Of a stretch of 64,000 nucleotides of DNA, positions 28,578 through 55,478 are shown piece by piece. The translations under genes and the position numbers were made by a program. Source of the DNA: an uncultured Burkholderiales bacterium (GTDB lineage: Bacteria; Pseudomonadota; Gammaproteobacteria; Burkholderiales; Burkholderiaceae_C); NCBI GenBank assembly GCA_903880855.1, contig CAIRQX010000039.1, forward strand, positions 33,101 to 97,100. The letters run 5' to 3'. The notes under the pieces were generated by a model. The model was not told where the DNA came from, did not search any database, and saw nothing but the letters and a program-made list of their open reading frames with translations. How positions within the stretch are numbered: position 1 is the first letter of the stretch; each line of letters opens with the position of its first letter.

Positions 28578-29585
28578 TTATTTATGGCTCAGAGCGTTGC
28601 TCACCAATTTAGAGGTGATGTCCACAATATGAATCATCCTGTCATAAGCCATGCGTGTCGGACCAATCACACCGAGCGTGCCAACCACTTGGCCGTCAAT
28701 TTCATAAGGAGCGCTCACGACGGAGAGTTCTTCAATAGGCACGATTTGGCTTTCGCCGCCAATGTAGATACGTACGCCCTCGGCTTGGGCAGAAATATCT
28801 AGCAAGCGCACCAACTGGGCTTTTTGCTCAAATAAATCAAAAGCACGACGCAATTGCCCCATGTCGCTAGAGAAGTCACTCACTGACAACAAATTACGCT
28901 CCCCGCTGATGACCACATCATCTTGCGGTTGCGAAAGCGCCTCCGTACTCACCTGCACCGCGGCTTGCATCAAAGTGGCAATCTCGCCGCGCAACGATTC
29001 CACTTCTGCTAACAATTTCTCTCGCACTTGCTCAATCGCCATTCCGGCGAAGTGGTGGTTCAAATAATTAGAAGCTTCGGTCAACTGTGATGCGCTGTAG
29101 TCGACTTCGGTAAACAAGACCCGGTTTTGAACGTCACCCTCAGGCGAAACCATGATGACCAATAGCCTGCGCTCGGACAGTCTGAGGAATTCAATATGCC
29201 TAAATATCGAACTTCGACGTGGCGCAATCACAACACCTACAAAATGTGACAAGTCAGACAACAAATTTGCTGCATTAGCGATTACTTTTTGCGGCTGATC
29301 TGCTGCCAAACTTGGGGTATGCAAATGCTCCCGATCCGCCGTCAACATCGTGTCTACAAACAGCCGGTATCCGCGCGAGGTAGGCACTCGCCCCGCAGAG
29401 GTATGGGGGCTGGCGATGAGGCCCAGCACCTCCAAATCGGACATAACGTTGCGTATGGTGGCAGGAGAGAGTTCTATGCCGGTTTCACGGGCAAGGGTGC
29501 GCGATCCGACGGGTTGCCCGTCGGAGATATAGCGTTCAACCAGTGCTTTCAGGAGCACTTTGGCGCGATCGTCTAGCATGTTCAT
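28578..29585 (-). CDS. hrcA: Heat-inducible transcription repressor HrcA
   Basis: [71 protein letters not shown]. Confidence 0.96.
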
Positions 29586-42078: not shown

Positions 42079-42720
42079 TTATGCAATCCGTTGCAACAAG
42101 TGGGCATGTACGTTGCCTGCCTTCAAATATCTATATGTTTGCAAGCCTTGGGCTGATAGCTCGGCGTCATTCCATTTTTTAGGGGCTTCCAAATAGATCC
42201 ATCCATTGAGCTTGATGCTTTGGGCAGCAGCTTTTAGCGCAGGTTCAAACAATTGACTTTCAAAAGGCGGATCGATGAAAACAAGATCCCAACTTTGGGG
42301 CGCTTGTCTTGCAAGCCAAGAAACTCCATCGGTTCGCTGAACATGCACGGCAGATGCTTTTAGGCGATCGATATGCGCTTGAAGTTGCTCTACCAACACA
42401 GTATCTTGCTCGCAGAGTTGCACCACACTGGCTTCGCGTGATGCTGCTTCTAGCCCCAATGCGCCAGTGCCCGCAAAGATATCCACGCATTTCCATCCGA
42501 GCAATGACTGCCCCAGCCAATTGAACAAGGTCTCGCGCACACGGTCTGGCGTAGGACGCAGGCCAGATTTGTTCGCCACGGGCAATTTGGTTCTTCGCCA
42601 TTGTCCGCCAATGATGCGGACTTCTCCAGCGCCCTTGTGCGCGGGTGCAGGCTTATCTTTGGGAGATGTTGGGCGCGTAAACGGTTTCATAGAATGCTTG
42701 ATTCTAGAAACCCCGCACAT
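42079..42720 (-). CDS. rsmD: 16S rRNA (guanine(966)-N(2))-methyltransferase RsmD (start may be 42690)
   Basis: VRIIGGQWRRTKLPV; RPTPDRVRETLFNWLGQ; DIFAGTGALGLEAASREA; LVFIDPPFE. Confidence 0.93.
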   Translation of the reverse strand: MCGVSRIKHSMKPFTRPTSPKDKPAPAHKGAGEVRIIGGQWRRTKLPVANKSGLRPTPDRVRETLFNWLGQSLLGWKCVDIFAGTGALGLEAASREASVVQLCEQDTVLVEQLQAHIDRLKASAVHVQRTDGVSWLARQAPQSWDLVFIDPPFESQLFEPALKAAAQSIKLNGWIYLEAPKKWNDAELSAQGLQTYRYLKAGNVHAHLLQRIA

Positions 42721-43717
42721 GTTTAGTTTTTTTAAGAAAAAATCTCCGCAAGAGCCTTCAAAGGCAGAGCCTCAACAAGCACCCACTCAGACACGCCAGA
42801 GTTGGCTGCAACGCTTGGGCAAAGGCTTGCAACGCACAGGCCAAAGCATTAGCAGCGTGTTCACGGGGACGCGCATTGACGATGCGCTTTATGAAGAACT
42901 GGAAACAGCGCTCTTGATGGCTGACACCGGCGTTGCCGCTACCGAATACCTGTTGAAAGACTTGAAGTTGCGCGTGAAAGAGACATCGACCACAGAGCCA
43001 GCAGCAGTCAAAGCGCTGTTGGCGCAATCCATCACGCAATTACTCACTCCGTTACAACAAACATTGACCGTTGGTGAACACGTCCCAACCGTGATCATGG
43101 TCGCTGGGGTGAACGGTGCTGGCAAAACCACGTCCATTGGCAAACTCACCCGCCATTTGAGCGAAAGCGGTGCCTCGGTCTTACTGGCTGCAGCCGATAC
43201 GTTTCGTGCAGCAGCCAAAGAGCAATTGGGTGTTTGGGCCACGCGCAACTCGGTCGATATCGTCTCGCAAGCGGGAGGCGATCCAGCCGCTGTGAGTTTT
43301 GACGCAGTCTCTGCCGGCAAGGCCCGCGGCAAAGACGTGGTGTTGGTAGACACTGCCGGACGGCTACCAACCCAACTCCATTTGATGGAAGAGTTGAAAA
43401 AGATCAAACGCGTCGTCCAAAAGGCAGATCCGACCGCGCCACATGAAGTACTTCTTGTCATCGACGGGAACACTGGGCAAAACGCACTGGCGCAAGTCAA
43501 GGCCTTTGACGAAGCCTTGGGCCTCACCGGCTTGGTAGTTACCAAATTGGACGGAACAGCAAAAGGCGGGGTTTTGGCCGCCATTGCCCTGTGGGGGCAG
43601 TCTCGCGTCGCAACTGGTGGGAGTGTGGTGCCGGTTTATTTCATTGGCGTGGGCGAAGCCGTGGAAGACTTGGAGACGTTTAATGCCCAAGAATTTGCCC
43701 AAGCTTTGTTGCAGTAA
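42719..43717 (+). CDS. ftsY: Signal recognition particle receptor FtsY
   Basis: MFSFFKKKSPQ start; GVNGAGKTTSIGKLTRHL; AADTFRAAAKEQL; DTAGRLPTQLHLMEEL; TKLDGTAKGG. Confidence 0.96.
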   Translation: MFSFFKKKSPQEPSKAEPQQAPTQTRQSWLQRLGKGLQRTGQSISSVFTGTRIDDALYEELETALLMADTGVAATEYLLKDLKLRVKETSTTEPAAVKALLAQSITQLLTPLQQTLTVGEHVPTVIMVAGVNGAGKTTSIGKLTRHLSESGASVLLAAADTFRAAAKEQLGVWATRNSVDIVSQAGGDPAAVSFDAVSAGKARGKDVVLVDTAGRLPTQLHLMEELKKIKRVVQKADPTAPHEVLLVIDGNTGQNALAQVKAFDEALGLTGLVVTKLDGTAKGGVLAAIALWGQSRVATGGSVVPVYFIGVGEAVEDLETFNAQEFAQALLQ

Positions 43718-43767
43718 GGCCCCATATTGGCCATCCAAGGGCCTTTTTATCCTGCCAAACAACAAAG

Positions 43768-43794
43768 TTAGCACTCCTTGCCATAGAGTGCTAA
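43768..43794. promoter_or_regulatory. CIRCE element (HrcA operator), perfect 9-9-9
   Basis: TTAGCACTC-CTTGCCATA-GAGTGCTAA; overlaps a plausible extended -10 (TGCTAAAAT) upstream of rpoH. Confidence 0.93.
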
Positions 43795-43824
43795 AATCGC
43801 CATAAGTACCCGAAAGGACTACAA

Positions 43825-44757
43825 ATGACGACCTTATCAAGTTCCACATTGGCTGTTGCCAACCCTTGGGCGCTGGTCCCATCGCTAGGCAATTTAGACG
43901 CGTATATCTCCGCGGTGAACCGCATGCCCATGCTCACCTTAGAGCAAGAGCAGGAGTTCGCCCGTAAACTGAAGAACGAGAATGATCTTGAGGCTGCCGG
44001 TAAGTTAGTGCTCTCTCACTTGCGTTTGGTGGTGTCGATTTCTCGCCAATACTTGGGCTACGGTTTACCCCATGGCGACCTGATCCAAGAAGGCAATATC
44101 GGCCTAATGAAAGCCGTCAAGCGCTTTGACCCCGACCAAGGCGTGCGCTTGGTGAGTTACGCCCTCCACTGGATCAAAGCCGAAATCCATGAGTACATCT
44201 TGAAGAACTGGCGCATGGTGAAAGTGGCAACCACCAAAGCCCAGCGCAAACTCTTCTTCAATTTGCGCTCGATGAAACAAGGCTTCAAAGCCGATGCAGA
44301 TGCCTCTGACTCCGACATGCACCGTAGCACGCTCAATCCGCAAGAGGTAGATGCTGTCGCTAAGCAACTCAAGGTCAAGCCCGAAGAAGTGCTGGAGATG
44401 GAAATGCGCATGTCGGGTGGCGACGTGATGCTAGACCCCACACCCAACGACGAAGGTGAAGAGGCTTTTGGCCCGATCGCTTACTTAAGCGACGTCAACC
44501 ACGAACCCACCGTCATGATGGCGGCGCACCAGCGCGATGTCTTGGCGTCTGACGGTATTGCTGCCGCCTTAGAAGTACTCGACGAGCGTAGCCGTCGCGT
44601 GGTCGAAGAGCGTTGGCTCAAGGTACAAGACGATGGCTCAGGCGGTATGACGCTGCATGAACTAGCAGCCGAGTACGGTGTAAGCGCAGAGCGTATCCGT
44701 CAAATTGAAGTTGCCGCCATGAAAAAAATGAGGGCAGCTTTGGCCGAATACGCCTAA
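43825..44757 (+). CDS. rpoH: RNA polymerase sigma-32 factor
   Basis: LVLSHLRLVVSISRQYLGYGLPHGDLIQEGNIGLMKAVKRFDPDQGVRLVSYALHWIKAEIHEYILKNWRMVKVATTKAQRKLFFNLRS. Confidence 0.96.
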   Translation: MTTLSSSTLAVANPWALVPSLGNLDAYISAVNRMPMLTLEQEQEFARKLKNENDLEAAGKLVLSHLRLVVSISRQYLGYGLPHGDLIQEGNIGLMKAVKRFDPDQGVRLVSYALHWIKAEIHEYILKNWRMVKVATTKAQRKLFFNLRSMKQGFKADADASDSDMHRSTLNPQEVDAVAKQLKVKPEEVLEMEMRMSGGDVMLDPTPNDEGEEAFGPIAYLSDVNHEPTVMMAAHQRDVLASDGIAAALEVLDERSRRVVEERWLKVQDDGSGGMTLHELAAEYGVSAERIRQIEVAAMKKMRAALAEYA

Positions 44758-54730: not shown

Positions 54731-55478
54731 ATGTTTGACAGTCGGTTTGAATGGCCTGCTTGGATGCAGCGCTTACGCTTGCCCAGCATTTGCCATATTT
54801 GCGAGGCTTGGCCCAGTTCTGCTTTGTGCGATGCGTGCGTGCATCAATTTGGCCAACCTATTTCGCGTTGCCCTACCTGTGCCTTGCCTGCGTTTGGAAG
54901 CAGGTGTTTTCCTTGCCATTACGAACCCCCGCCGCTGGACAAATGCTTGACAGCGGTGACCTACGGTCACCCGTGGTCAGACTGCATCGCCAAATTCAAA
55001 TTCCATGGCGATGTGGGTCTAGCCCGCCAGCTTGCGCAGTTGATGCGCAACGCGCCTTGGGTAGAACCTGCTTTAGAAATGGCCGACAGCGTGATCGCCG
55101 TGCCCTTGTCTGCATCACGTCTGCGTGAGCGGGGTTTCAACCAAACTTATGAATTAGCCAAACACTTGGAACCACAAAAAGCAGATGGTAGCCAAACACT
55201 TGGAACCACAAAAAGCAGATGGCAGGTCTCTTTTGCGCTTAGAGCATTCCGTCCACCAAGTAGGGGCAAGCCGCGCAGAGCGTTTGGCGCAAGCAAGTAA
55301 CACCTTCTGGGTCGACCCGATGCGCTTACCAAGTCTCAAAGGAAAACGCGTGGTGTTACTCGACGATGTCATGACTACAGGCGCCACCTTATTTGAAGCC
55401 GCCCGCACCTTGCGCAAAGCAGGAGTTACGCATATCTCAGGCTTGGTGTTTGCGCGGGCTCAACTAACGGAAACGTGA
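54731..55478 (+). pseudogene. comF: ComF-family protein disrupted by a 34-bp tandem duplication frameshift
   Basis: N-terminal half (CHICEAWPSSALCDACVHQF; PLSASRLRERGFNQTYELAKHL) in one frame, PRTase motif KGKRVVLLDDVMTTGATLFEAARTLRKAG in another; 748 bp minus 34 = 714 bp = 238 codons. Confidence 0.9.
55155..55222. repeat. Perfect 34-bp tandem direct duplication
   Basis: (TAGCCAAACACTTGGAACCACAAAAAGCAGATGG) x2, copies 55155-55188 and 55189-55222. Confidence 0.98.

Follow-up and report, generated by a model that had tools for sequence, protein, structure and literature searches.

A CIRCE operator upstream of rpoH, conserved with hrcA across Burkholderiales, that probably doubles as the rpoH promoter

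A CIRCE element upstream of rpoH in an uncultured Burkholderiales bacterium is – with a probability that we put at roughly 0.85 – at once a working HrcA operator and the core promoter of the gene. Judged by sequence comparison, CIRCE at rpoH is an old and widely shared arrangement that is lost with hrcA; because relatives share the site and it vanishes when hrcA is lost, it is very probable that the two systems of heat-shock control, HrcA and sigma-32, act in series.

The element, TTAGCACTCCTTGCCATAGAGTGCTAA, is a 27-mer at positions 43768-43794 on the plus strand of the window (the whole stretch of DNA analysed, 64 kb in length), and agrees with the CIRCE consensus TTAGCACTC-N9-GAGTGCTAA exactly, both in its arms and in the length of its spacer. 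An earlier note, made from the letters of this DNA, had described a perfect CIRCE some 30 bp before the sigma-32 start codon, with hrcA in the same window, and on each point it was right: the site is the sole match at up to three mismatches in the 64 kb scanned, it ends 30 bp before the rpoH ATG (43825), and hrcA lies at 28578-29585 on the minus strand. The rpoH gene (43825-44757, plus strand; 310 aa) encodes a normal full-length sigma-32 according to the curated family model (NCBIfam rpoH_proteo TIGR02392, 390.8 bits, cut-off 323.1), and a ribosome-binding-like AAAGGA (43813-43818, plus strand), read from the sequence, stands 6 bp 5' of its start codon. The hrcA gene (335 aa; heat-inducible transcriptional repressor, NCBIfam TIGR00331, 303.1 bits, cut-off 197.2) is the only one in the genome and lies 14 kb from the rpoH CIRCE. 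The whole 2.8 Mb genome contains two CIRCE elements, one at rpoH and one before groES (groESL); the whole-genome scan found none in front of either hrcA or dnaK. The earlier statement that CIRCE normally controls groESL and dnaK has to be revised, the usual pair in the order being groESL and rpoH. The dnaK gene is preceded by a sigma-32-like CTTGAAA-N13-CCACAA, and groES has a sigma-32-like site upstream besides its CIRCE. Elsewhere in the window, a ComF-like ORF with an odd C-terminus (54731-55300, plus strand) appears shortened or frameshifted.

The operator can also be read as a promoter. Sigma-70-type promoters were defined by a -35 and a -10 separated by 16-18 bp, with at least nine of 12 consensus matches, and the scan returned TTAGCA-18-TAAAAT at 43768-43797 (9/12), with TG before the -10. 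The -35-like TTAGCA (43768-43773, plus strand), which agrees with the consensus at four of six positions only, is provided by the left CIRCE arm, while the extended -10-like TGC-TAAAAT (43789-43797, plus strand) is composed of the right arm and the AAT that follows; the extended -10-like overlap reported in the earlier note is this same element, TGCTAAAAT at 43789-43797. Across the order (sampled as described below), a T at the third position past the right arm, completing TANNAT, is present in 131 of 133 rpoH sites vs. two of 14 groES sites. In 53 of the 133 rpoH sites the left arm has changed at its third base, nearly always from A to G (giving TTGGCA, which is nearer to TTGACA), whereas no site has changed at the mirror position of the right arm, which supplies the initial T of the -10: this asymmetry is not expected of a symmetric operator alone, and thus argues for a promoter. 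At the groES sites of the order the operator comes after a CCCTAT-like -10. Alternatively, the operator might act as a roadblock that stops transcription entering from ftsY, and not on a promoter of its own. The ftsY gene (42716-43717, plus strand, start approximate; NCBIfam ftsY, 311.3 bits, cut-off 260.7) is directly upstream on the same strand, and a terminator between ftsY and rpoH was considered and rejected: a weak terminator-like hairpin (AAGGCCC...GGGCCTT plus a T-run; 43716-43745, plus strand; fold -13 kcal/mol) is present between the ftsY stop and the operator, but its fold is not significant (z -1.08) and the terminator scan missed it, so that read-through into rpoH is possible. Nevertheless, the rpoH sites, unlike those at groES, have conserved promoter elements in their arms and flank, and in relatives sigma-E promoters overlap the operator: a roadblock is therefore improbable.

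Conservation was assessed in an order set of 150 genomes, rpoH being located in 148 of them; 148 upstream regions were scanned (one gene at a contig edge was left out, and one genome contributes two genes), and a site was scored as CIRCE with up to four mismatches within 400 bp upstream of rpoH. CIRCE is found somewhere in 133 of the 150 genomes, nearly all of which have exactly two. It is present upstream of rpoH in 133 of the 148 regions and in 45 of 49 families (55 of the 133 sites are perfect), so the scan of related Burkholderiales suggested in the earlier note has a positive outcome. At the same threshold 615 shuffled upstream regions gave one match, and none of 100 shuffles of the window gave any match (0 expected by chance); together these rule out a chance occurrence of CIRCE at rpoH. 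In the window's genus all 28 readable members carry the site with at most one mismatch. Beyond the order the class sample comprised genomes with both a site and an rpoH match among those listed, and here 27 of 29 genomes have the site at rpoH, 47-221 bp before the rpoH match, among the matches listed. Presence in order, class and genus rules out a peculiarity of one genome. Carriers include Variovorax, Diaphorobacter, Acidovorax, Hydrogenophaga, Pandoraea, Janthinobacterium, Polynucleobacter and Nitrosomonas, together with the gamma-proteobacteria Alcanivorax, Dyella and Thiodiazotropha; in the named set scanned, CIRCE is absent from rpoH of enteric bacteria, Haemophilus, Pseudomonas, Aeromonas and Halomonas. 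Upstream of rpoH in Luteimonas (L227, TTAGCAGTC...CACTGCTAA) and Xanthomonas (L228, CCGGCAGTC...GACTGCTAA) there are palindromes that resemble CIRCE but differ from it in the core, which suggests a shifted operator variant near rpoH. One assembly (G047) has two rpoH-like genes (contigs C23 and C43), each with CIRCE and GGAACTT upstream; since its listed contamination is 3%, the two genes may come from more than one organism.

The site and its repressor come and go together. Among the 148 regions, the site is accompanied by hrcA in 130, and both are missing in 15. There is no case of hrcA with the site absent; the reverse, a site with no hrcA detected, occurs in three (these three assemblies are 78-84% complete). 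The Fisher value for the association, 6e-18, treats related genomes as independent and is descriptive only. Joint loss of hrcA and site has affected four whole families (f20, f41, f42 and f45) as well as single members of three others (G053, G115 and G034, of families f4, f25 and f35, respectively). In G034 the CIRCE has decayed to five mismatches and GGAACTT-N16-TCATA is retained. The loss of the palindrome along with hrcA bears also on whether it acts as an RNA or terminator hairpin rather than as an HrcA operator. A scan of the minus strand does label the palindrome terminator-like, but beyond the shared loss its arms and spacer length are exactly those of CIRCE and it lies upstream of the rpoH start predicted at about 43804, 7 nt past TAAAAT, which together make a hairpin function very improbable. 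The earlier proposal that HrcA stands above the sigma-32 regulon – at that point inferred wiring – thus gains support from conservation of the rpoH site across order and class and from its joint disappearance with hrcA.

Many relatives appear to carry a second promoter at the same place. GGAACTT (up to one mismatch) is found upstream of the operator in 83 of the 133 regions, vs. 3.5 expected from shuffles. Where the motif begins 16 or 17 bp ahead of the operator, the TC of the left arm follows 16-17 bp later, and an A occupies spacer base 3 in 90% of the sites with GGAACTT vs. 14% of those without. Among the window's closest lineages, the putative sigma-E -35 is about 4 bp closer to the operator and TCnnA has shifted along with it (8/8). 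This predicted GGAACTT plus TCnnA pattern is that of the known sigma-E promoter rpoHP3. In its strict form (GGAACTT-N16/17-TCnnA), applied to 184 CIRCE-bearing regions (the order set plus named loci, with a few duplicates), the pattern overlaps the operator in 95 and lies farther upstream in 15. Trinickia and Pandoraea have it upstream of CIRCE, at about -31; in the Burkholderia-like L196, L197, G098, G138 and G119 a sigma-E-like promoter precedes CIRCE by about 28-33 bp, a distance at which the sigma-E-like -10 abuts, and does not overlap, the operator. Among lineages the sigma-E promoter and CIRCE at rpoH are thus seen in three registers of the two elements. A MAG named Bordetella (L201) has a one-mismatch CIRCE and no sigma-E motif by the strict pattern, despite reported use of SigE there: Bordetella SigE transcribes its rpoH promoter in vitro (PMC3490749). 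In B. pseudomallei a heat-inducible rpoH promoter is under RpoE control (PMC5994319).

The window itself has no GGAACTT-N16/17-TCnnA before rpoH, and none of the 28 readable genus members has GGAACTT there. The best RpoE match in the window genome scores 24 bits (cut-off 236), and RpoE exceeds the curated cut-off in none of 31 genomes (that of the window, G000, plus 30 genus members). In the other family members of the draw (n=3) both RpoE and GGAACTT are present: the window's genus appears, from these profile matches, to have lost RpoE. Six near-complete CIRCE genomes without RpoE are all without GGAACTT, although the association between RpoE and GGAACTT is modest (P=0.03) with two incomplete exceptions counted. 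With both the sigma-E promoter and rpoE lost, HrcA would be the main visible transcriptional input to rpoH in this genus.

Under the preferred reading, HrcA bound to the operator would exclude RNA polymerase by covering the rpoH promoter or promoters, so that rpoH transcription would be low while HrcA is active. In Bacillus, HrcA activity requires GroEL. Heat, or a shortage of free GroEL, would inactivate HrcA and open groESL and rpoH together; sigma-32 would next drive dnaK (which has no CIRCE) and add to groESL via its sigma-32-like promoter. The circuit would be a coherent feed-forward loop in which GroEL closes a negative feedback, and in many relatives the sigma-E promoter overlapping or abutting the operator would provide a second input. 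A Campylobacter HrcA is reported to be a thermosensor (PMC8533110). In one insect symbiont RpoH and GroEL both rise at 36 C (PMC12617022), which lends weak support.

HrcA might, however, bind and yet do little more than fine-tune, the level of rpoH being set mainly post-transcriptionally, by translation and DnaK/FtsH-dependent turnover. E. coli is an established case of sigma-32 being controlled through its translation and turnover, and this precedent, along with a normal full-length RpoH in the window, speaks for such an account. Against it, near-perfect conservation of the operator and its loss together with hrcA argue for a selected effect, and the leader predicted from the sequence, about 20 nt, is short for a 5' thermometer of the E. 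coli kind; we regard predominantly post-transcriptional control as possible, with the odds somewhat against it.

Wiring of HrcA to rpoH is not new in kind, since it was already predicted for Geobacter sulfurreducens: Table 8 of Rodionov et al. 2004 (PMC545781) places a CIRCE before rpoH at -51. The Geobacter site shares the TTAGCACTC-N9-GAGTGCTAA consensus at rpoH with the window and both have a CIRCE at groESL, but Geobacter also has CIRCE at hrcA-grpE-dnaKJ, whereas the window genome has none at dnaK or hrcA; the Geobacter case is a prediction for one delta-proteobacterium, and no embedding in a promoter was found described for it. The Bacillus-type HrcA/CIRCE system (groESL, dnaK) has the same operator and the same repressor family as the window; its operator lies past the start, whereas in the window it is a gene for a sigma factor that is targeted, and the -35 and -10 appear to be formed by the operator itself. 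E. coli rpoHP3 and Bordetella fam (PMC3490749) represent a sigma-E rpoH promoter like the GGAACTT-N16/17-TCnnA of the window's relatives and unlike the window's genus, which has neither that promoter nor RpoE; in the relatives that keep it, the promoter usually overlaps CIRCE, whereas E. coli (as control genome) gave no HrcA match. In the literature searched for CIRCE with rpoH, PMC545781 was the only directly relevant match, and the word HrcA is absent from the larger comparative survey PMC5343134. What is added here is the association with hrcA throughout the order, together with the composite promoter; for these no earlier description was found in the literature searched, Permina and Gelfand 2003 (pmid 15153770) being outside its scope. 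That survey, of beta- and gamma-proteobacteria, is the likeliest place for an earlier record and may list CIRCE at rpoH.

On balance we think it fairly probable that beta- and gamma-proteobacteria retaining hrcA have a composite core promoter at rpoH: a 27-bp HrcA operator would be laid over a housekeeping promoter and, in the majority of lineages, over a sigma-E promoter too, bringing cytoplasmic stress (via HrcA) and envelope stress (via sigma-E) together at one site. Where hrcA is missing, as in the enteric bacteria, the operator would have been lost and the sigma-E promoter retained. The usual account holds HrcA and sigma-32 to be two parallel heat-shock systems, with sigma-32 governed post-transcriptionally as in E. 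coli. The pattern of joint loss and the composite promoter yield a simple prediction that is testable in a related genus. If the operator works, most beta- and many gamma-proteobacteria would run HrcA and sigma-32 in series via one site, and E. coli would be the derived case, without the repressor.
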